Below are positions 269 to 32,139 of a DNA stretch of 33,719 nt, piece by piece; the stretch's first letter is position 1, and each line of letters begins with the position of its first letter. A model generated the notes under the pieces. That model searched no databases. It had not been told where the DNA came from and was given only the letters and a program-made list of their open reading frames with translations. The stretch comes from Candidatus Syntrophosphaera sp. (GTDB lineage Bacteria > Cloacimonadota > Cloacimonadia > Cloacimonadales > Cloacimonadaceae), in NCBI GenBank assembly GCA_019429425.1, contig JAHYIU010000014.1, forward strand, positions 1 through 33,719, in the 5' to 3' direction. The position numbers and the translations under genes were made by a program.

Positions 269-1672
269 TCAAAGCTCGCCAGAAAGTTCGCTTTTACCGC
301 AGAGCAGCGCGGCGGCGTTGGGGCAAAGGACATGAAGATGGTTGGCCATCCAGTCGGACAGGGCGCGGATCTCCCACTGGGCGTGTTCGTCCGAACGCAG
401 GCGCACAAAGTGGTACAGCTCGCGGAGGTTCATTTTGGCCAGGACCTTGACCTTGTCGGAATTGACGCGGATGTAAGCAGAGAGGTCGGGAAAAACCTGG
501 CGCAGTTTGGGGCGGAACTTCTCCAGCCTCTCCAGAAGTTGGCCCCACTGGGGTTCGCGGCCGAGGTCGAAGATCTCTTCCGGGAGGGTGAAAGGCCCGA
601 TGGAGGGGTTGGTTTGCTTGATGAGGGTGCCCACGCGGTGGCGTTTGAACTGGGCCCAGCAGCTTTCGGACATGTTGAGCTCGAAGACCAGGTCCACCAA
701 CTCGAAGGCGCGGCTCATCTTGTGCCAGGGCTTGATGCCGGCAAAGACCTGCCGCCAGAGCTCGCGCTTGGCGTCAAAATCCATGTCCGCTATCGTATCC
801 CGGCAATGGGCCATGTCTGCCTGGGCCTGTTCAAAAAGCAGGGCGGCGAGGATCAGGTCGTCCGGGTCCGGGGTCAGGGAAACCACGCGCACATTTTCGT
901 CATCCTGGAAATCATCCCCGCCGGGGTTGATGCCTTGCGCGCTGAAGGTGCCGCTGAAGCTGTCTTTCTTGGTGTAGCGGACCAGGGAGGGGCAGACCTC
1001 CTGGGAAAGGTTGAGCAGGGCCGCATGGAGCTCGGCGGCTTCCTGCAGGGGGTTGGCCGCGAGGCGGCGGAGCAGGTTTTCCAGGCTGCGGGCGTTGATC
1101 GTCATGCCCAATTGGGTTTTGGCGGCCAGGGGCAGGATGTAGCGGGCGTCTTCCTTGGCTCGGCATTCCCGCTCGAGCTTGGACAGGCCGGGTGTTTCCC
1201 TTTCATGGAATTTGACGAGGGCCTCGAAGCTTTCCCGGTATTCATTGAACAGGCTGTCCATCAGCTTGATGTAAGCCCCTTTCAGCGATTCGTGCCGGGG
1301 TTCGTTCAGTTCGGAGGGCACCACATAGTCGTTTTGGAAGGTGACATAGCGCTGGGATTTTTCCGTGAAGGAGGCGAAGCGCACGGTTTCCAGGGTCTCA
1401 GTGAGCAGCCGGGAAATGCCGATGATGTCGAAGTTGAAGACGGCGTGCTCGGCGACCGAGGCATGGCCCAGCTCAAAGATGATGTTGCGGTTGGATTTGC
1501 GCGCCTTTTCCAGTTCCATCAGGGCCTCTTCGCGCAGTTCGGTGACGGATTTGGGGCTGCGGCTGATCCTGGCATAGGCGGCGGAGATCACTTCCGGGGT
1601 GGCGGTTTCCGTGTTCAGCCGCTTGATCAGGCTGCTGTCGATGTTGTAGCCGGCGAGGTTGACCTGCATCAT
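269..1672 (-). CDS. thyX: Tandem-domain ThyX-family flavin-dependent thymidylate synthase
   Basis: ThyX makes dTMP from dUMP in the cytoplasm using methylene-tetrahydrofolate, FAD and NADPH. This 467-residue protein is about twice the usual ThyX length and reads as two ThyX repeats. The N-terminal half (about residues 60-230) keeps SFTEKSQRYV (101-110) and a NARSL helix, but its RHR positions read TVR (96-98). The C-terminal half has an intact RHR (344-346, in FKRHRVGT) and LRSDEHAQWEIR near 420-430, but lacks the SxNExSxR continuation. The two halves therefore hold complementary parts of the motif. The start is 10 bp after deoC, which suggests co-transcription with another deoxynucleotide gene. 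Family membership is clear. Catalytic competence is inferred only, because in canonical ThyX the active site is shared between subunits. Confidence 0.85.
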   Translation of the reverse strand: MMQVNLAGYNIDSSLIKRLNTETATPEVISAAYARISRSPKSVTELREEALMELEKARKSNRNIIFELGHASVAEHAVFNFDIIGISRLLTETLETVRFASFTEKSQRYVTFQNDYVVPSELNEPRHESLKGAYIKLMDSLFNEYRESFEALVKFHERETPGLSKLERECRAKEDARYILPLAAKTQLGMTINARSLENLLRRLAANPLQEAAELHAALLNLSQEVCPSLVRYTKKDSFSGTFSAQGINPGGDDFQDDENVRVVSLTPDPDDLILAALLFEQAQADMAHCRDTIADMDFDAKRELWRQVFAGIKPWHKMSRAFELVDLVFELNMSESCWAQFKRHRVGTLIKQTNPSIGPFTLPEEIFDLGREPQWGQLLERLEKFRPKLRQVFPDLSAYIRVNSDKVKVLAKMNLRELYHFVRLRSDEHAQWEIRALSDWMANHLHVLCPNAAALLCGKSELSGEL

Positions 1673-19550: not shown

Positions 19551-20909
<1,359 letters not shown>

Positions 20910-21001: not shown

Positions 21002-23947
21002 TCACTTAATTATGACGGCGTTTTTTCCGTCAAATAAAAACTTCATATTCCGGGGAGTTTTTTTAGCCAGGAAGTACTGGCCCTCCGCCAGGGTTTCCAG
21101 AGAGGCCAGCCAAGTCCAATCCAGCCAGTCATTTGCGGCTTTCTCCCAAACCGTGAGGTAGCCAACGTTCATGGAAAAAAGATTGTGGAAGAAGTGCGAT
21201 CCGTGGGAGGCCTCGATGGACATATTGGGCAGCACGACCTCGACGATGATCTGGGCGTTGCAGATCTGGCTCCAGTTCACGGGTATGCCCAGGAAGCGGT
21301 CGCTCGAGCCCCAGCGTCCTGGCCCAATGAGGACATATTTGGTTCCGGAGTCCCGCATTGCCTGGTTCATGTCGTCCAGTTCCCTGGCCATTTCCTCCGT
21401 TTTGACGATGTCGAATTTCTCCGGCGGGATGTAGAGGATGGTATCCAATTCCTCGTTGATCTCGCTGCCGAGGGCGTAGGAAGAATATACGATCAGGTCC
21501 TGTTTGCTGGCCGCGTATTTTTCCAGGGGCTGGGAATAATGGTGGATGTTTACGGCGATGGGGCGGACCTGCAGCAGATGGAAAGAGGCCATACCGCTGT
21601 GTTCGTCGACGTCGAAGGCGAATTCCATCTCGATCTCGCAGCCGAGGACTTCCCTGCCCAGCAGCAGGAGGTCGCGGATGATGGGCGCCAGGGGGTATTC
21701 GTTGTAGTGCAATAGCTTGCGGTAGGTGATCACCCTTGGGCCGGGGATATGCCTGCCGTCCTTGAATTCCTTGTTTTCATAGTCCCAGACCGAGGAAAGC
21801 AGGCTGAGGCTGGTCTCGCAGAGTTTCTGGCTGATCCGCAGCCTGGAGAGGGAGGCCTTTTCCCCGCTGCTGAGGTCAAACTCCGTTAGCGAAGGCTGGA
21901 TGGTGTAAAGATGGCGTTGGGCGGCCTCGACGATGTCCGTGGGTTTGAACATGTCCTTGTTCGGGAAGCGGGGGCAGAAGGCGAAAGTCCGTTCGCGCTC
22001 GACCGCCGTTTTGCCCAAACCGGTGGAAAGGGTCACCACGCCGTCCTCGTGGCCCATGTTCGTGCCGGGATAGAAATTGTAGGATTGGGCGACTCCGGAG
22101 ACCAAAGGATAGAAATGGTCTTCATGGGCGGAGCCGGCCACTTTCTGGATGATCACGGCCATCTTCTCCTCGCGGGCGGGGATGTGCAGTTTCTCGCGGT
22201 AGACCCGGGCGGATTTTTGGAACATCGAGGAATAGACCAGCTTGACTGCCTGGATGAGCTGTTCCAGGCGGATCCTGGGGTCGGGATTACTGTTGGGGAT
22301 CAGATAGGTGCGAAACACGCCGGCGAAGGGATTGGCGATCGAATCTTCCAGGATCGAGGAAGAACGCACGGCCAGGGGAAACACGCCCTGGTTGATGATC
22401 TGTTCGAGCACCGCCACCACAGTCTCCGGTAGGCGGGCATCAAGAAAGAGCTGGTCGATCTCTGCGTCGGAGTATTTTTCCTCGTCGTCCAGCAAGGCCA
22501 GCAGAGGCGGGTTTGCCGCCAGGTAGGAATCGAAGATGCCGGTGGCCAGAACCGCCGCCACGGGCACACTGATCTGGACCTCGGGGTATCTTTCGCAGAT
22601 GTTGCTGTAGCGGTTCAGCACCACGTTCAGGAAGGCCAACCCACGACCCTTGCCGCCGATGGAATCGTCTCCCACTTTGTAGATGAGGTTGAGCTGAAAA
22701 TCGCTTTCGCTGTTCCAATCCTGGATCTTTTCCCTTCTGCGGTAGGAAATGAGCGATTCGAAGGCTTCGCCGATCCGGTCGCGCAGGATTTGGGCTTCGC
22801 CGATGTCGCGGAATTTGTCGATGTACTTGGCCAGGGCCAGTTCCGCGTGGGTGCGCAGCCAGTTGTAGACGTGGCGGTTCTGATAGTGGAAAAGCAGGCT
22901 TACTTCCGGGATGGAGCTCAACTGGCGGTCCAGCCCGATCAGGGATTCAGCCTCGCCGATGACGCTTTGGTCCGGCAGGCGGAAGACGAACTTGCCAAAG
23001 CCGATCTCGTTTTCCAGCCAGCGCCTGATCCTGGTCTTCAATCCGGGCAGGTCCTTGTAGAGGAATTCACCTTCGTTGCTGGTGACGATATCGTTGTATT
23101 TGGGGTTGAAGCTTTGCAGGAGGAAGGGGAGGTGGGGATCGTGTTTCCGGATGTGCTGGAGCAGGTTTATCCCTCCGTCCCGGAAAGACGAGCCCATGTA
23201 GTGGTAATTGACGTTGCTGACGATGCCGATGATGTTGGCGGAGTACTTTGCGTGGAAGGCCACGGCGCTGTCATAATCGTGGAGGAGCATGACGCGGGGG
23301 CGGGCCTTGATGTAGAGGGTCTTGTTCACATCCTGGTGTTCGCGCAGGATGACGGTCTGGTTCAGGAGCATGACCTGTTCCTGCAGCAGGGGCAAAAACT
23401 GGGAATAGTAGGGGATGAAGGTCTCCACCACGAGGATGAGCGGAATGGGCAGGAGCGCGACGTCGTGGTCGATGTTCTGGATCAATTCCCATTGCTTGAT
23501 GATGGCCAAAACGAGCTTCGAATCCCCGTTCCAATAGAAGAAATCCTCCACATCGCGCAGTTCCTCGAGATGGTTTTCCACAAACATCAGGTCCTGCGGC
23601 GCGCCCATCAGGAAAAAGATCGGCAGTTCCGGCTTCAGCTTTTTGATCCGGCTCACCAGTTCCAGGGCGATGGAACGCATGGAAGCCAGATGGATGATGA
23701 TGATGTCGATCTTTTCCAGTTCCAGCAGGCTGATTGTGCTATCCAGAGAGGAAGTGTGGTGGATGACCGGCTGGGTGGAGAGATTCATCAGATGGAAATC
23801 CTCGAGCACCTGCTCGGCCAGAAAGCCGTCCACTTCAAACACGAAGGAATCGTAAAGTGAGGCGATCATCAGGATGTGCTGGACCCGCCGGGGCGTCATC
23901 TGGTCAAGCTGTTCCAGCTCGATCGACCAGTAATTTGAGGTGATCAT
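21002..23947 (-). CDS. Receiver-like and PEP/pyruvate-binding domain protein, degenerate receiver (paralogue 2)
   Basis: The 981-residue protein has four parts. Receiver-like domain 1 (about 22-155) has His86 at the phospho-acceptor position. Receiver-like domain 2 (about 168-305) has lost the acidic pair (LVVETF, Glu175-Thr176) and carries Asn245 instead of the acceptor Asp (GIVSNVNYH). The PPDK/PEP-synthase N-terminal ATP-grasp domain (about 420-800) has GGKGRGLAFLN, AVRSSSILED, NPFAGVFRTYL and LQVRPI. The C-terminal domain contains LIGPGRWGSSDRFLGIPV (from about 873) and GSHFFHNLFSMNVGY. No phosphohistidine swivel motif or PEP-binding barrel is present, so it is not a working PEP synthase. 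GGAGGGGG precedes the ATG. It lies 62 bp after its paralogue. Its function is unknown. Confidence 0.85.
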   Translation of the reverse strand: MITSNYWSIELEQLDQMTPRRVQHILMIASLYDSFVFEVDGFLAEQVLEDFHLMNLSTQPVIHHTSSLDSTISLLELEKIDIIIIHLASMRSIALELVSRIKKLKPELPIFFLMGAPQDLMFVENHLEELRDVEDFFYWNGDSKLVLAIIKQWELIQNIDHDVALLPIPLILVVETFIPYYSQFLPLLQEQVMLLNQTVILREHQDVNKTLYIKARPRVMLLHDYDSAVAFHAKYSANIIGIVSNVNYHYMGSSFRDGGINLLQHIRKHDPHLPFLLQSFNPKYNDIVTSNEGEFLYKDLPGLKTRIRRWLENEIGFGKFVFRLPDQSVIGEAESLIGLDRQLSSIPEVSLLFHYQNRHVYNWLRTHAELALAKYIDKFRDIGEAQILRDRIGEAFESLISYRRREKIQDWNSESDFQLNLIYKVGDDSIGGKGRGLAFLNVVLNRYSNICERYPEVQISVPVAAVLATGIFDSYLAANPPLLALLDDEEKYSDAEIDQLFLDARLPETVVAVLEQIINQGVFPLAVRSSSILEDSIANPFAGVFRTYLIPNSNPDPRIRLEQLIQAVKLVYSSMFQKSARVYREKLHIPAREEKMAVIIQKVAGSAHEDHFYPLVSGVAQSYNFYPGTNMGHEDGVVTLSTGLGKTAVERERTFAFCPRFPNKDMFKPTDIVEAAQRHLYTIQPSLTEFDLSSGEKASLSRLRISQKLCETSLSLLSSVWDYENKEFKDGRHIPGPRVITYRKLLHYNEYPLAPIIRDLLLLGREVLGCEIEMEFAFDVDEHSGMASFHLLQVRPIAVNIHHYSQPLEKYAASKQDLIVYSSYALGSEINEELDTILYIPPEKFDIVKTEEMARELDDMNQAMRDSGTKYVLIGPGRWGSSDRFLGIPVNWSQICNAQIIVEVVLPNMSIEASHGSHFFHNLFSMNVGYLTVWEKAANDWLDWTWLASLETLAEGQYFLAKKTPRNMKFLFDGKNAVIIK

Positions 23948-24009
23948 GAGCGGTTGCCCCCTCCGAGCGAGATCCTGTTCAATTCTCCAGACAGCATCTG
24001 CCCATTCCT

Positions 24010-26976
24010 CTACTTGTGGATTACGGCCAGGCCGGTTTTGCCGTCCATGCGCACAATCAGAGGATGATCAAATTCCAGGTGGACGAAGTAGTTGCCGCGT
24101 TCCTTTTCAGGCTGCTGATACAGCCATTCCACATCGACGAAGTCCGTGCTGGACACAAAGGGGATGGTGAAATAACCCACGTTCATGGCCACCAGGTTGT
24201 GGAAGAAATGCGTACCCTGTGAGGCTTCCACGATGAAATCGCGCAGGCCGGTTTCCAGGATGACCTTGGCGCGGTTGATCTGGGGCCAGCGCACGGGGAT
24301 GCCCAAAAACTTGTCTCGAGAGCCCCAGCGCCCTGGTCCGATCAGGATATAGCGTTTTCCCTGTTTGGCCATTTCCGCGTTGAAGCGTTCGATCTCCTCC
24401 TGCATCTCCACGGTCTTGGTCTTGTCGAATTTCCTGGGATCGAGGTAGACCACGTCGGTCAGTTCGTTGATCACGCCGTTGCCCATGCCGTGTTCCGTGT
24501 ACATCAGCAATTCGCTCTTGTCCAGGGAGGCGGTGTCGATCCGGTAGGCGTCGGTGTTCACGGACAGGGGCCGGACCTGGAGGATGTAGAAGCTGGGTTT
24601 GCCGCCGGTTTCCGGGTTATGGTCCAGGTTCACCGCAAACTCGATCTCGACGGGGATGCCGAGGGCGATCTCGCCGATCTCCAGCAGCTCTTCGATGATC
24701 TTGGCCAGGGGGAAATAGTTGTATTTCAGGATCCCGGAGAAGGTGAGCACTTTCAGCCCGCGCTCTTCGAGGTTATCCGTCAGGCGATAGTTCTCATAGT
24801 CCCAGATGGAGGCCAGATAGCGCAATACGCCATGCTTTTCCGCGTCCTTGAGTGTGAGCTTGGCCAGGGTGATTTCCTCGCCCTTGGTCAGGTCAAAGTC
24901 ATTCAGGGAAAGGTCCAAGGCGTAGAAATCCTTCTGGGCCGTCCGCACCATCTCGGTTTGGGGCAGCATCTCGGTTTCGGGATAGCGGGGGCAGAAGCGG
25001 AAATTGAGTTTGCCCTCAACCACCGATTTACCCAGGCCGAGGGCGATGTTGGCGATCCCGTCTGTGTGCTGCATGTAACTGGTGGGGTAAAAGTTGTAGG
25101 ATTGCGCCACGCCGGAGATATGGGGATAGTAGAAATGTTCGCCTTTGAGGGAACCCACGGTCTCCTGGATGATGACGGCCATCTTTTCTTCCTCGGCCTT
25201 GAAGTTCAGTGCTTCGAGGAAGTTGCGGGCGTCGCTCAGATAGACGCTGGCGAACACCAGCTTGATCGCGTCCATCAACTGCCTGAGCCGGTACATCTTG
25301 TCGGGATGGTTGTTGGGGAGCATGAAGGTGCGGTAGACCCCGGCCAGGGGCTGGGCCTGCGAATCCTCGAGCAGGCTGGATGAGCGCACCGCGATGGGGT
25401 AATGCACCCCGTCCAGATAGATCTCCAGGCGCTGGACGAGCAGTTCTGTGAGCTGCCCGCTGATGAAGATGGCGTCGATCTCTTCATCGCTCTTGTCCTG
25501 GATCTTTTCCAGGATGCCGTTGGATTCCACGAACTGGTCGAACTCGATGGTGCCGATGATGGCCGTGCTGGGCAGGGAGATGCTGATGTCCTCGAACTTT
25601 TTCTCGAAATCCATGGTCACCAGGAGCGCGTTAAGAAAGGCCAGTCCGCGTCCCTTGCCGCCCAGCGAGCCTTCGGTGAGGCGGATGATCTGGTTCATCT
25701 CGGTGAGCGATACTGCGTCGAAATTGATGATTTTGCCCTTGTTTTTGTCGATACGCACATTGCGGAAGGTCTGGTGGAGAAAATTGCGCAGCTCGTCCTT
25801 GCTGGCAAAGTCCTCGATCCGCATCGGGCGGAGGCGTTTGGCGATCTGGACCTCTCCGTGGGCGATCAGCCAGTTTGAAAAATGGTTGAATTTGCTATGG
25901 AAAACCAGGGTTTCGTCCGGAACGTGGAGGATCTTCTGTTCAAATTCGGCGATGTTGGCGGCTTCATCGATCACTTCGTTTTTGGCGTTGCGAAAGACGA
26001 AATTGCCGAAGCCAAGGTTGTAGACCATGAAATTGCGCAGCTTTCCGAAGAGGTTCTTGGAATTCTTGTTCAGGAAGTGGACGCCCAGGTCCTCGGCCGT
26101 TTTCTCGTTCTTTTCTTCCGAGGATTGCAGGATCATGGGCAGGTCGGCAAATTCCCCCTTGATGTGCTTGATCAGCTTCACCCCGGCAAGCGGGTCTTCC
26201 TCGCCATCGACCTTGTAGCGCACGTCCGAGATCAGGCAGAGCAGGTATTCCTTGTATTTTTCATAGGTCTGGATCGCCTCGTTATAGTTGTGGGCGAGGA
26301 TCACCTTGGGCCGGACCCGCATCCGGAGGCGTTTGTTCACGTCGCTCACCTCCTCCTCAATCAATCTTTGGGTCTGGCGCATGATCACGCTGTAGAGCGA
26401 CGGCAGGAACATGGAATAGTAGTGCACGGAATCCTCCACCAACAGGATCACGCGCACCAGGCCGTTGGCGGTGTCGAAATCCACGTTCATCTTGTCTTCG
26501 ACGCTCTTGACCATGGCCAAAAAGAGCTTCGTGTCGCCGTTCCAGAGGAAGACGTCGTCGATATGGCATTTATCCTCGGGATGGTTTTCCCAGATGATAT
26601 AGTCCGAGGCGACATTGAGCAGCAGCAGGATGGGTAGGTCGGGATGTTTTTGCTTGATCTTCTTGGAAAGCTCAAAGGGTCCGATCTCCCCGATGCGCAT
26701 CATGGTGATCACCAGGTCATAGCGATGGTCCTTCAGCTTTTCCAAAGCGTCCGCGCCCGTGGGTACGCTGGTGATGCGGGGCGCCGTGCTCAGATTCAGC
26801 TGGCGGTATTCCCCGAAGATCTGTTCCGAAAGCCGGCCGTCCTGTTCAAAGATGAAAGCGTCGTAAAACGTGGAAACCAACAGGATGTCCCGCACCCGCT
26901 TCTGCATCAACTGGTGGAATATGTCCTCACCGAACTTGAACTTGGTGTAGAAATAGTTTAGATCTTCCATCTTCAT
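24010..26976 (-). CDS. Receiver-like and PEP/pyruvate-binding domain protein, intact receiver (paralogue 1)
   Basis: The 988-residue protein is the upstream twin of the gene at 21002-23947 and has the same domain order. Receiver-like domain 1 (about 28-160) has Met92 at the acceptor position. Receiver domain 2 (about 174-312) looks complete: Glu181-Asp182 (LLVEDS), Asp251 (LISDVRYK), Ser285 (LQSSE) and Lys304 (FLNKNS). The ATP-grasp domain follows, with GGKGRGLAFLN near 436, AVRSSSLLED near 528, PLAGVYRTFML and LQVRPLSVN near 798. The C-terminal part has LIGPGRWGSRDKFLGIPV near 880 and GTHFFHNLVAMNVGYFT. There is no swivel histidine motif. ATP-binding is expected and the phosphoryl acceptor is unknown. 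GAGG lies 9 bases upstream of the ATG. I infer that phosphorylation at Asp251 controls the ATP-grasp unit. Confidence 0.87.
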   Translation of the reverse strand: MKMEDLNYFYTKFKFGEDIFHQLMQKRVRDILLVSTFYDAFIFEQDGRLSEQIFGEYRQLNLSTAPRITSVPTGADALEKLKDHRYDLVITMMRIGEIGPFELSKKIKQKHPDLPILLLLNVASDYIIWENHPEDKCHIDDVFLWNGDTKLFLAMVKSVEDKMNVDFDTANGLVRVILLVEDSVHYYSMFLPSLYSVIMRQTQRLIEEEVSDVNKRLRMRVRPKVILAHNYNEAIQTYEKYKEYLLCLISDVRYKVDGEEDPLAGVKLIKHIKGEFADLPMILQSSEEKNEKTAEDLGVHFLNKNSKNLFGKLRNFMVYNLGFGNFVFRNAKNEVIDEAANIAEFEQKILHVPDETLVFHSKFNHFSNWLIAHGEVQIAKRLRPMRIEDFASKDELRNFLHQTFRNVRIDKNKGKIINFDAVSLTEMNQIIRLTEGSLGGKGRGLAFLNALLVTMDFEKKFEDISISLPSTAIIGTIEFDQFVESNGILEKIQDKSDEEIDAIFISGQLTELLVQRLEIYLDGVHYPIAVRSSSLLEDSQAQPLAGVYRTFMLPNNHPDKMYRLRQLMDAIKLVFASVYLSDARNFLEALNFKAEEEKMAVIIQETVGSLKGEHFYYPHISGVAQSYNFYPTSYMQHTDGIANIALGLGKSVVEGKLNFRFCPRYPETEMLPQTEMVRTAQKDFYALDLSLNDFDLTKGEEITLAKLTLKDAEKHGVLRYLASIWDYENYRLTDNLEERGLKVLTFSGILKYNYFPLAKIIEELLEIGEIALGIPVEIEFAVNLDHNPETGGKPSFYILQVRPLSVNTDAYRIDTASLDKSELLMYTEHGMGNGVINELTDVVYLDPRKFDKTKTVEMQEEIERFNAEMAKQGKRYILIGPGRWGSRDKFLGIPVRWPQINRAKVILETGLRDFIVEASQGTHFFHNLVAMNVGYFTIPFVSSTDFVDVEWLYQQPEKERGNYFVHLEFDHPLIVRMDGKTGLAVIHK

Positions 26977-27581: not shown

Positions 27582-30500
27582 TTATTTCATCAGCAGCATC
27601 TTGCGGGTCTGGCTTTGTCCGTTCAGGTCAAGCTTGTAAAGGTACAATCCGGAAGCAACGGGCATACCATGGTCGTCGGTACCGTTCCAGCTAAGGCGGT
27701 GATCTCCGCGTTGGACTTCGTTATTGAGCAGAGTGCGAACCAACTGGCCTTTGGTGTTGAAGATATCCAGGCGCGCGTTTCCGCTGTCTTGGGCGGAGAA
27801 AGCGATGGTGGTGCTGGGATTGAAGGGATTGGGATAGTTTTGTTCCAACTGGAAAGGCGCGGCCATCACCTGGTCGTCGTTGGAGACGAAAGCGTAGGGG
27901 GCCACGGTGGTGAATTTGACCGCCAAACCGGCTTGCAGGGGTGTGGCGGTTGGCGGATAGACATTGCCGTGGGTGTAGGCAAGCCCCTCTGTTTGCAGAT
28001 GATTTTCAATGCCAACCGTGCAGTAGTTGGTTGTGGTTCCGGGATTGTCCACAGTATGGTACTGAACCACGATATCACCGTCCCTGTCGGTCTGCGGATA
28101 GAGGATGATCTGGAATTTCTCCAGCGAGGCGTTCTCCATCAGATCGATGTTGTATTGGTTGTAGGCGTCGTTCCATTGCACGATGAACCGGTCGTTGGCG
28201 CTGTCGTGCCAATAGATCACGCGGATGTCGTTGAACAAGCCGGCCCCGGTATCGGGATCCGTGCCGGTCTTCATGCCTTTGAGGTCGTCCCAGTATCCGG
28301 CGATCATGGCGTAGGGCCCCAGGGCGGCGGGGATATAGTGGTTGTAGAAATCCTCCATGGTCGTGGGCATGAGGGAGACCCAGCCGTTGGAGCACATGGT
28401 GAGTTGATCGTAATCCAAACCGTAGAATCTGAATGTGAAAGGCAGGTCGATGGTTTTGGAGCCGTCGTCCATGATCAGCCAGACGCTGCCCTGCCCGCCC
28501 AGCGCCGGATCGGTCTCGATCCATTGATAGACCGGGGTTTGAGCGAATCCCGCGTCGAAGCTGTCATAGGCGTAATAGCCATAGGCGTCGGGACCGGTGG
28601 GGGAGGTGTTGATTGCCGTTCCGGCCGAGACGGCGTATGATGCGGTCGTGGTGTATTCCGAATCGATGACGGTGATCCGCAGAGGCAAATTGCAGCCGTG
28701 CCAGGCATTGGCGGATACGGAGATGGTGGTGTTGATGGTCTTGGTCTCGCCGATATCGATGGCGCCCAGGCTGATGGGTTCGGCAGGATAGAGGGCCGCG
28801 TCGCTCACAGAAAGGATCTGGGCATAGGCGTTGGTCAGGGCGGTCGAGCCCGTGTTCATGATCTCGAAGCTGATGGGCGAGGTCTGGCCGATGTTGAAGG
28901 TCCCGGAACTGCCCAGAATGGTGAATTCAGCTCCGCCGCCCCACATCTGGAACATTTGGGAGAAGGCGGGGGAAACGCTGCTCAGGGTGAAGGTGATCGC
29001 GTCGCGGGGCTGGATCTCAGGCCAGCCCTGGATCTGGAAATTGATCGTCTGCGTTCCGTTCGCGGGGATGGTGATGTCTGTGCTTTGATAATCGATCGTG
29101 GCGTTCGCGGAAGCGGTGATCGACAGAGTCGGAACCGTCAAGCTGGCCGTGCCATAGTTCTTGAGCGTCAAAGTGGCGTCGAAGCTGTGATTGGGGTGCA
29201 AAACCATGCCGGCGGCGTTGTTGGACACGATGCCGAGCCCGGCTGGTTCGTTTGGAGCAAGGGTCCGCACCAGAGGCACGAAGTTGGGCTGCGAAACCGT
29301 TATGGTCAGGTCGCCGCTTTGTTCCGGATCGATCGGCAGGATGGCGAATCCGCCCTGGACTTTGGCATAGCTGAAATCGGTGCTGTTTTTGGTCCCGGAG
29401 ACCATGGCGCCGTTGTTTCCCGGGGAGTTGATGCGGATGTGCGAATCGCTCTGGGAGAAGCTCAGCCCGCCCTGGATCACGCTTTCCGGGATGGTTTCCG
29501 GCACCAGCACCCACATGTTCAGGCTGGGATCGGCCTGGATGTTGTAGACGTGGAAATAGAAGGAGACATACTGGTTTGGCCCGATATCATTGGGGAAGTT
29601 CTTGTAGAGCTCCATCTTGCCCATCAGCACGCTGGAGCCGAATCCGCGCACACCGAAATCAAAGATGCTGCGGAAAGCGCCGCTGGAGATGGAATTGTTC
29701 AGCCGGGTCTTGGTGTGCAGGTCCGAGGGCCCCACGAAGGCCACGCAGCCGTTGGGCTGGGCGACCGAGCCCATGCGCATCCATTTCTCGCCGAAGCTGG
29801 GATTGACCGTGTTGGCAAAATCCCCGGTGTTGCAGACAATGGAAAAGACGATCGGCATCCGGGGCCCGTTGGTGGTGGAATTCAGGTCCGGCACGTGGAA
29901 GGAGGGATAGTGCCAGCCGTTGGCGTCGCCCCAGCCGCGGTAGCTGATGAACTGGACTCCCTGGTTGATCGAGGTTATGATATTGGAGGTTCCGGGATAG
30001 GTGGGCGGATAATAGACAGTGTCAACAGCCGCGTAGCCGTAGTTGAGCATCTTGTCCCGCAGCCAGCGTGACATCTGCACCGGAGTTATCGGACGCAGGC
30101 CGCCTTCGGCATAGTTTCCGGCCACGGCCAGGCCGCGGGTCATCCAGGCGGTGTTGGTCATGAAAGGCGTTTTTTCGTAACTGACAGACTTGTTGGCCAT
30201 GGTCATGAATTCGGCGATGTCGTTGAAAGAGAGGCGTCCCACCAGCATTTCCGGGAAGTAGTCGTCACCGTCCAGAAGCGTGTATTGATGGTCGTCGGCG
30301 TCATTCTCCTGGTATTCGGGAGAAGGATAGAACGCCGTGGGGATGGAATAGGAGCCGGTTACGTCGCCCAACAGGAGCAGGTAATCGCAGCGGTACTGGT
30401 CGTAATGGTTTTGGATGAACTGCTTGTAGTCGTTCAGGGAACTGCCGATCTCGGATTTGTTCACCACATACATGTCAAAGCCCTGGGAGCGTTTCCAGCG

Positions 30501-31088
30501 GACAAAATCGGCCTGGTAGGCCGTCAGGTTGCCATGGCTCAGCATCAGCATTTTGGGCCGGGCGACGGGAAGGTCGCGCAGATACGAGGTCTGGTAATTG
30601 TCCGCCAATTCCTTGTAGGCGTCGATGAAAGCCGGGGAAACAGTCTGGGGCAGAGTGATGGGCTGCCAGCCGCTGAGCGAGAATTCCGCAGTGCTGAGGG
30701 TGCGGATGTTTTCTCCGTCGCTCAATTGGGTCTCGATGAGGACGGTGAAGCCCTGCATTTCCCTGAAAGTGAAGCTGTTGCCAATGCTCAGCGCGTTGAT
30801 GTTCCTGTTCTGTTCCGTGTACAGGAAGTTGCCGCTGGCGTCAAACACGTTCCATTGCAGGCTTTGCACCTGCAGCTCGGCCTGCTGGAAAGGCAGGGCG
30901 TAGGTTTTGGAGATCAGGGTGGTCTCGGGGAATTCCTCATCCGCGGGCGGCATTTCCAGCTCGGGCAGGCTGCGGATGTTATCCAACCTGGCGCTCAGGC
31001 CAAGCGGCGATTCCTGGTATTGTTCCAGCATCGCCGCCTGCAAGATGCTCAGGCTCAGTAATATAGCTATAATGATCGGTGATTTCAT
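27582..31088 (-). CDS. Secreted C25 (gingipain)-family protein with C-terminal sorting domain
   Basis: The 1168-residue protein starts at the ATG with first base 31088, because GGGAGG lies 6 bases upstream and a signal peptide follows (MKSPIIIAILLSLSILQAA). The frame stays open further upstream without biological support. A C25 peptidase-like domain (about 180-520) includes LLLLGDVTGSY, PEMLVGRLS and the nucleophile region FSIVCNTGDF with Cys419. The His position in the usual GHG reads RGWG (Trp386), 33 residues before the Cys. Beta-rich repeats (about 600-850) and a GLDYDQLTMCSNGW-type domain follow. The C-terminal 90 residues are a T9SS/FlgD-like sorting domain (QNYPNPFNPSTTI ... SGLYLYKL). 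It is exported, probably surface-bound. Proteolysis is uncertain. Confidence 0.87.
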   Translation of the reverse strand: MKSPIIIAILLSLSILQAAMLEQYQESPLGLSARLDNIRSLPELEMPPADEEFPETTLISKTYALPFQQAELQVQSLQWNVFDASGNFLYTEQNRNINALSIGNSFTFREMQGFTVLIETQLSDGENIRTLSTAEFSLSGWQPITLPQTVSPAFIDAYKELADNYQTSYLRDLPVARPKMLMLSHGNLTAYQADFVRWKRSQGFDMYVVNKSEIGSSLNDYKQFIQNHYDQYRCDYLLLLGDVTGSYSIPTAFYPSPEYQENDADDHQYTLLDGDDYFPEMLVGRLSFNDIAEFMTMANKSVSYEKTPFMTNTAWMTRGLAVAGNYAEGGLRPITPVQMSRWLRDKMLNYGYAAVDTVYYPPTYPGTSNIITSINQGVQFISYRGWGDANGWHYPSFHVPDLNSTTNGPRMPIVFSIVCNTGDFANTVNPSFGEKWMRMGSVAQPNGCVAFVGPSDLHTKTRLNNSISSGAFRSIFDFGVRGFGSSVLMGKMELYKNFPNDIGPNQYVSFYFHVYNIQADPSLNMWVLVPETIPESVIQGGLSFSQSDSHIRINSPGNNGAMVSGTKNSTDFSYAKVQGGFAILPIDPEQSGDLTITVSQPNFVPLVRTLAPNEPAGLGIVSNNAAGMVLHPNHSFDATLTLKNYGTASLTVPTLSITASANATIDYQSTDITIPANGTQTINFQIQGWPEIQPRDAITFTLSSVSPAFSQMFQMWGGGAEFTILGSSGTFNIGQTSPISFEIMNTGSTALTNAYAQILSVSDAALYPAEPISLGAIDIGETKTINTTISVSANAWHGCNLPLRITVIDSEYTTTASYAVSAGTAINTSPTGPDAYGYYAYDSFDAGFAQTPVYQWIETDPALGGQGSVWLIMDDGSKTIDLPFTFRFYGLDYDQLTMCSNGWVSLMPTTMEDFYNHYIPAALGPYAMIAGYWDDLKGMKTGTDPDTGAGLFNDIRVIYWHDSANDRFIVQWNDAYNQYNIDLMENASLEKFQIILYPQTDRDGDIVVQYHTVDNPGTTTNYCTVGIENHLQTEGLAYTHGNVYPPTATPLQAGLAVKFTTVAPYAFVSNDDQVMAAPFQLEQNYPNPFNPSTTIAFSAQDSGNARLDIFNTKGQLVRTLLNNEVQRGDHRLSWNGTDDHGMPVASGLYLYKLDLNGQSQTRKMLLMK

Positions 31089-31129
31089 GACTTCCTCCCG
31101 TGAAGTTAGCATAGGTATATGCAAAAACC

Positions 31130-31151
31130 ATTCCGAAACGGGTTTCAGAAT
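31130..31151. promoter_or_regulatory. Palindrome between divergent genes
   Basis: ATTCCGAAAC and GTTTCAGAAT form a 10-bp inverted repeat with one mismatch and a 2-bp centre. It sits between the divergent C25-family and EEP lipoprotein genes, where it could bind a shared regulator or form part of a promoter. No regulator is encoded next to it. Confidence 0.35.
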
Positions 31152-31161
31152 TAAGGAACTT

Positions 31162-31189
31162 TTGGATTTGGTTAATTTCTTGCTATGGA
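31162..31189 (+). promoter_or_regulatory. Candidate promoter of the EEP lipoprotein gene
   Basis: TTGGAT (31162-31167) and TATGGA (31184-31189) are spaced by 16 bp and lie about 35 bp upstream of the start codon at 31225, in an A/T-rich stretch. The match is moderate and unsupported by other evidence. Confidence 0.3.
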
Positions 31190-31224
31190 CTATTTTCTTA
31201 AGATGAAACTTTAAGGAAAACCAA

Positions 31225-32139
31225 ATGCATAAAAACGTCAAACATGTGCCTCTGCTCTTGCTTTTCGCCCTGATCATTTTCGGCTGCGGAACCAATGTCA
31301 ATCTGACTCCGCCGGATGACGTCAGCATCCTCCATTTCGGTTCGGACGAATCGCTGGACGTCGTCACCTGGAATCTGCGCACTTTTCCTCTGACAACTTC
31401 TACGATCCAGACCCTGGCGCAGATCGTTCCCCAGATGAAGGTGGACGTATTCGCGTTTCAGGAGATCATGGATTACAGCGCCTTTTTCGCTCTGGCCGAC
31501 CAGATCCCCAACTATTCGGGCTACGTGTATAATGCCACCAACAGCTACCGCCTGGCCTATCTTTACGACACCCGCACGATCCAGGTCAACGACGCCTATA
31601 CCATTTTTGAAGGCCAGACCAACCCTTTCCCGCGGGCACCCTATATCCTGGATTTTGTCTTTCAGGGCCGGGATTTCATCGTTATCAACAATCACCTTAA
31701 GGCGTTCGGGGACAACTTCATCGACGAAAACGATCCCTGGGATGAGGAATACCGGCGCCGGCTGGCCTGCCAGTTGCTGGACCAATATGTGGTCGATAAC
31801 TTTCCGGAGGACAGGGTGCTGCTCGTGGGCGATTTCAACGACCAGATCGCCGAACCCCGCGAATACAACGTGTTCCTGAGCTTTCTGGACAAGCCTGAAG
31901 AATACCTGTTCGCGGACATGGCCATCGCCCTTGCTCCCACCTACAACAATGTTTCCTACCCCAGCTACCTTTCCCACATCGACCACATCATCATCACCAA
32001 CGAGCTCTTCGCCGCCTTCGAACGGCCCGACAGTGAGTGCCGCGTGATCAATGTGGAGCAGTACATGGGCAGTTGGGCCAACTATTCCAACCAGATCTCG
32101 GACCACCGGCCGCTGGGAATCAAGCTCCACCTCGATTAA
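31225..32139 (+). CDS. Endonuclease/exonuclease/phosphatase-family lipoprotein
   Basis: The 304-residue protein has a short signal peptide ending in a lipobox (IFGC, Cys21), so it should be membrane-anchored outside the cytoplasm. The rest is an EEP-fold domain with the usual metal and catalytic motifs in order: VTWNLRTF (about 50), FQEIMD (about 78), INNHLKAFG (about 155), LLVGDFNDQ (about 199), SHIDHIIITN (about 252) and ISDHRPLGI (about 292). Members include DNase I-like nucleases, sphingomyelinases and phosphatases. The substrate is unknown, and an extracellular nuclease or phosphodiesterase role is likely. TAAGGA lies upstream of the ATG. It is divergent from the C25-family gene. Confidence 0.9.
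   Translation: MHKNVKHVPLLLLFALIIFGCGTNVNLTPPDDVSILHFGSDESLDVVTWNLRTFPLTTSTIQTLAQIVPQMKVDVFAFQEIMDYSAFFALADQIPNYSGYVYNATNSYRLAYLYDTRTIQVNDAYTIFEGQTNPFPRAPYILDFVFQGRDFIVINNHLKAFGDNFIDENDPWDEEYRRRLACQLLDQYVVDNFPEDRVLLVGDFNDQIAEPREYNVFLSFLDKPEEYLFADMAIALAPTYNNVSYPSYLSHIDHIIITNELFAAFERPDSECRVINVEQYMGSWANYSNQISDHRPLGIKLHLD

Follow-up and report, generated by a model that had tools for sequence, protein, structure and literature searches.

Two adjacent genes, A and B, which precede a glutamate dehydrogenase (GDH) gene, are tentatively interpreted, at somewhat less than an even chance, as a signal-gated ATP-grasp phosphotransferase pair dedicated to GDH, in which A would be switchable and B receiver-dead. 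The genes were identified in a 33,719-nucleotide stretch of DNA (the window) from a Candidatus Cloacimonadota genome, and their layout is as follows.

24010..26976, minus strand: gene A, 988 aa; receiver 1 (degenerate), receiver 2 (canonical), helical linker, PPDK_N ATP-grasp domain and C-terminal GPGRWGS/GTHFF domain.
21002..23947, minus strand: gene B, 981 aa; paralogue of A, receiver-dead by sequence, with ATP-grasp and C-terminal motifs intact.
19551..20882, minus strand: gdhA, NADP-type glutamate dehydrogenase, 443 aa; the linked partner gene, assigned by Pfam (E 8.7e-89) and by NCBIfam NF006929 plus synteny.

The gap between A and B is 62 bp, gdhA lies 119 bp beyond B, and its product scored 745 bits against NF006929 (cut-off 536). 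The original prediction, made from the DNA alone, was of tandem twin genes of 988 and 981 residues with the same domain order; both open reading frames were found exactly where predicted, and the proteins are 38% identical across 971 aligned positions, end to end. Elsewhere in the window, a gingipain-type C25 peptidase with a T9SS sorting tail is encoded just upstream of A (27582-31382, minus strand), and a 467-aa protein with two ThyX (Thy1)-matching stretches, possibly a duplicated thymidylate synthase, is encoded at 269-1672 (minus strand).

Domains were assigned using Pfam, an AlphaFold2 model of A, and Foldseek, which together support the predicted order of two receiver-like domains, a PPDK_N domain and a unique C-terminal domain. 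The alignments used for structure modelling were drawn from the window and the genome loci only, and the resulting model of A (pLDDT 85.1, pTM 0.70) contains two receiver folds. The best Foldseek match of full-length A was the tandem-receiver protein PleD (E 1.4e-08). The Pfam receiver model scored above its cut-off only in A (receiver 1) and was sub-threshold in B. The receiver-like domains of A are the following.

26467..26889, minus strand: receiver-like domain 1 of A, residues ~30-170; Pfam Response_reg E 3e-08; Met92 at the acceptor position.
26002..26454, minus strand: receiver domain 2 of A, residues ~175-325; E181 and D182, acceptor D251 (26224-26226), S285 and K304 all kept; receiver fold in the AlphaFold2 model.

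The acceptor position of receiver 1 is Met92 in all 52 A-type proteins, so that no phosphorylation is possible there; in A and B alike this domain carries Met, Leu or His in place of the acceptor Asp and is degenerate throughout. Receiver 2 of A has the acidic pair, acceptor Asp, Ser/Thr and Lys expected of a working receiver, and D251 is present in all 55 A-like proteins (52 A-type and 3 from Bacteroidales). The equivalent Asp is lost from all 23 B proteins, where it is replaced by Asn (as in the B of the window) or another residue. By these sequence criteria, receiver 2 of A is the sole phosphorylatable receiver and B is receiver-dead. The signalling control via receivers that had been proposed is thus plausible by sequence for receiver 2 of A and not for receiver 1 or for B. 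Of the rest of that interpretation, the architecture, the absence of swivel and barrel domains and above all the GDH link were supported, and the kinase or phosphotransferase activity on another molecule is a prediction.

The putative catalytic portion of both proteins begins with a PPDK_N ATP-grasp domain.

24547..25668, minus strand: PPDK_N ATP-grasp domain of A, residues 437-810; GGK 439-441, RSS 531-533, ED 537-538, E779 and QxRP 800-803; Pfam E 1.9e-36.
21533..22666, minus strand: PPDK_N ATP-grasp domain of B, residues 428-805; Pfam E 1e-31.

A comparison of 86 rows comprising A, B, short forms and a nucleotidyltransferase fusion (the last two described below) found the compared ATP-grasp residues invariant in all 86, except for a small number of rare or conservative substitutions at E777 and P803, and on this basis the ATP site is judged intact in both A and B. 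This conservation argues against the proteins being regulatory pseudoenzymes, in which the ATP-grasp domain would merely sense adenylate charge and the proteins would act by binding GDH or a transcription regulator. The degeneration of receiver 1 in both proteins and of receiver 2 in B shows that family members can lose enzymatic or signalling residues, and it lends that explanation some support; overall it is considered improbable.

The remainder of each protein is a domain of ~180 aa whose family motifs are GxGRxGSxD and SxG[S/T]HFF.

24013..24555, minus strand: C-terminal domain of A, residues 808-988; GPGRWGSxD, GIPV and SQG[S/T]HFFHN motifs; invariant H923 (24208-24210); AlphaFold2 pLDDT 89.6.
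21005..21547, minus strand: C-terminal domain of B, residues 801-981; carries the GSHFF histidine.

The histidine of the GTHFF motif (H923 of A) is invariant in all 86 rows, and the loop immediately before it (917-921) is the only stretch of the AlphaFold2 model with a pLDDT below 50; the domain could itself be a carrier, with an invariant histidine beside a low-confidence loop. The domain is confidently modelled and gave no significant match in Pfam, PDB sequences, PDB folds or viral fold libraries (Foldseek). Known PEP synthase-type enzymes had been predicted to differ from A and B in having a swivelling phosphohistidine domain and a PEP barrel, and this was borne out: neither a PF00391 swivel (TxH) nor a PEP/pyruvate TIM barrel was detected in A or B by Pfam, and there is no room for a barrel beyond the ~180-aa domain. 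A hidden swivel was also searched for, because the motif order resembles one, by comparing the C-terminal profile with Cloacimonadota swivel domains in hhalign; the probability was below 1% with or without the nucleotidyltransferase-fusion relatives.

That result bears on the possibility that a highly diverged swivelling phosphohistidine domain makes up the C-terminus, in which case the protein would constitute two thirds of a PpsA/PPDK and the phosphate recipient would be either another polypeptide or the protein's own receiver Asp. By eye, the order of motifs parallels that of a swivel (a strand then a loop, a GTHFF helix resembling the TSHAA helix, and a final DGxxG). The Foldseek alignment of full-length A to PPDK (E 5e-06) spans ~700 columns, more than the ATP-grasp domain alone could give, which is suggestive only. 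Among the weak top matches of the isolated domain are TRiC, a PA domain and the small subunit of carbamoyl-phosphate synthetase, which contain the swivelling beta/beta/alpha fold. Against this, every match of the isolated domain in the PDB had E >0.1, the profile comparison was negative, and we know of no swivel counterpart of the conserved GPGRWGS motif. The proposal is compatible with the phosphotransferase reading and is regarded as possible, though rather doubtful.

Members of the A/B family were found in 93 of 125 Cloacimonadota genomes, and homologues (38-39% identity, single copy) occur in Bacteroidales records from Parabacteroides, Phocaeicola and Prevotella. In a quick tree, the B proteins fell into two groups, one of them on a long branch; a tree in which all B proteins form one clade had a lnL 0.55 higher than the free tree (AU p 0.52). 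Since the one-clade tree is as likely and synteny is shared, the comparison favours, without proving, the origin of the A-B pair by a single old duplication. The original prediction was open to the objection that homologues might occur only as unrelated singletons with an assigned activity; the pair proved to be syntenic and of old origin, and no homologue with an assigned activity came to light. The literature searched yielded no description of this domain architecture or its GDH link, and no biochemical data on any family member. No relative was found in the viral contigs searched, and PADLOC returned weak partial matches only. Two faecal GenBank records labelled 'Bacteriophage sp.' (MT835811.1 and MT835667.1; L124 and L125) contain a full-length homologue, with no GDH within the DNA examined, and are probably bacterial contigs mislabelled as phage.

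A GDH gene was located within 3 kb of the homologue in 31 of 44 loci, and in 26 of the 35 with at least 2 kb of flank on each side; the loci were picked to sample families and forms, not randomly, and these figures are counts, not rates. The connection to gdhA that had been suggested from the window was found to be recurrent: the order A-B-gdhA is kept across several Cloacimonadota families, GDH adjoins the homologue in Parabacteroides and Phocaeicola (two of three Bacteroidales loci) and not in Prevotella, and GDH also lies beside a receiver-less short form. Within the family to which the window belongs, a gdhA of the window type was present in 23 of 24 genomes with B versus at most 3 of 26 without it (counted by hand; Fisher 5e-10, relatedness not corrected for). 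As judged from this co-occurrence, gain and loss of B go along with gain and loss of the window-type gdhA; five genomes of the same family have A and lack the window-type gdhA. Members without a nearby GDH are those at loci L046, L067-L069, L076-L078 and L080, among which L076, L077 and L078 form a ~1010-aa subfamily that may have a different function.

The existence of such copies is the point in favour of the gdhA linkage being an operon convenience, with A and B serving general carbon flux (PEP/pyruvate). The linkage is nevertheless also seen in a second phylum and next to a GDH of a different type, and elsewhere the host genome encodes a conventional PPDK (906 aa) as well as PpsA-like and EI-like proteins, each with a true TSH swivel, so that this explanation appears very improbable. 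GDH has been reported as abundant in Cloacimonadota at high propionate, with 2-oxoglutarate as the carbon skeleton for nitrogen assimilation (PMC13082233); the text of that article makes no mention of PPDK.

The short form (~580 aa, no receivers) adjoins another GDH type and a ~1050-aa fusion protein, composed of PPDK_N, the same GPGRWGS/GTHFF domain and a C-terminal nucleotidyltransferase (NTP_transf_2/Polbeta).

L071:7422-10562, plus strand: nucleotidyltransferase fusion; likewise in L072, L074 and L075.

The neighbours of the fusion gene are the short-form ATP-grasp gene, the second-type GDH gene and a gene for a calcineurin-like phosphoesterase, an arrangement reminiscent of covalent nitrogen regulators. 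The N-terminus of the fusion resembles the sensor part of a histidine kinase linked to the A-B module. A gene for this HisKA/HATPase kinase adjoins the module in ten loci, in nine of which a gene for an NtrC-type sigma-54 regulator is also present; because the neighbour clusters were built by single linkage, only adjacent, same-strand cases were counted. The kinase and regulator adjoin the operon in sister genera, and the adjacent pair is absent at the locus in the window and at L054 from the same genus. Orthologues of the two proteins were sought elsewhere in the genome of the window, where the best matches were generic only. A sigma-54 promoter was also sought upstream of A in the 44 loci, and the scores were no better than those of shuffled sequences.

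The short form and the linked regulators bear on whether A and B are instead metabolic ATP-grasp ligases or dikinases, which would convert glutamate, 2-oxoglutarate or another acid derived from an amino acid into a phosphorylated or condensed product, with the receivers as allosteric control and gdhA supplying or using the substrate. The receiver-less form implies that the catalytic core can work without receivers, the C-terminal domain is rich in invariant polar residues, as a catalytic domain should be, and the ligases PigC and RedH rank with PEP synthase as the best partial matches among curated models. These matches and that to PEP synthase extend little past the ATP-grasp domain, however, no recurrent biosynthetic neighbour other than GDH was found in loci around the family of the window, and a regulatory role accords better with the linked sensor-bearing regulators and the receiver-dead twin. 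A metabolic role is rated as rather unlikely.

Under the phosphotransferase reading, phosphorylation of Asp251 in receiver 2 of A would shift the module formed by the ATP-grasp and C-terminal domains between states. The ATP-grasp domain would bind ATP in the manner of PPDK/PpsA and might transfer phosphate to the invariant H923, which would then pass it to an acceptor in glutamate/nitrogen metabolism, the first candidates being GDH itself or its regulator. B, with a receiver that is not phosphorylatable, would serve as A's partner, either constitutive or opposing, perhaps within a heteromer. What the sequences themselves show is the order of domains, the receiver asymmetry, the intact ATP site, the invariant histidine, the long-standing pairing, and the linkage to and joint loss with GDH; activity, direction of control, the histidine's carrier function, which acceptor is used and what B does are all inferred. 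Of the mechanism, the best-supported elements are gating through receiver 2, a working ATP site and a target related to GDH; the histidine-carrier step is a guess, given the lack of swivel profile similarity and of a significant fold match.

To our knowledge, little has been established about the control of GDH outside the classic PII/GlnD/GlnE systems. That the A/B family travels with gdhA across the phylum and into gut relatives of Bacteroides suggests a previously undescribed switch acting on glutamate and nitrogen metabolism. A GDH-tied family in Cloacimonadota and Bacteroidales, gut species included, would offer a point of control over glutamate/ammonia metabolism open to direct testing, and through it PPDK-type ATP-grasp chemistry would reach beyond metabolism into signalling. 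It is conceivable, though not probable, that a new principle of nitrogen signalling is involved, combining a receiver-gated PPDK-type ATP-grasp domain, a new phosphocarrier or catalytic domain, a receiver-dead twin and covalent control of GDH, with a sister version (the short form plus the nucleotidyltransferase fusion) acting on another GDH.

Among known systems, pyruvate,water dikinase (PpsA) and pyruvate,phosphate dikinase (PPDK; PF01326) share with A and B the ATP-grasp domain with its GGKG, AVRSS, ED and QxRP motifs; unlike these enzymes, A and B have no detectable PF00391 phosphohistidine swivel or PEP/pyruvate barrel, and receivers and a unique C-terminal domain are added. Rifampicin phosphotransferase (RPH) and the prodigiosin ligases PigC and RedH, which count among the nearest matches to curated models and solved structures, likewise have a PPDK_N ATP-grasp domain, which they use on non-pyruvate acceptors. 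They also carry a swivel domain, and the similarity of A and B to them is mostly confined to the ATP-grasp domain, with scores of at most 49 bits against cut-offs of 999-1700 over that stretch only and no full-length match. The nearest relatives in RefSeq are Bacteroidales entries annotated as 'PEP/pyruvate-binding domain-containing protein', a name that gives no specific function. One example, WP_041525632.1 from Parabacteroides distasonis, has the same architecture, is alike over its full length at the identity given above and adjoins gdhA; proteins of this type differ from A and B in being single copy and in their divergent orientation to gdhA. PleD resembles A in having tandem receiver folds ahead of an enzymatic output domain, and differs in that the output domain of A is an ATP-grasp instead of a GGDEF domain and the receiver predicted to be phosphorylatable in A is the second.
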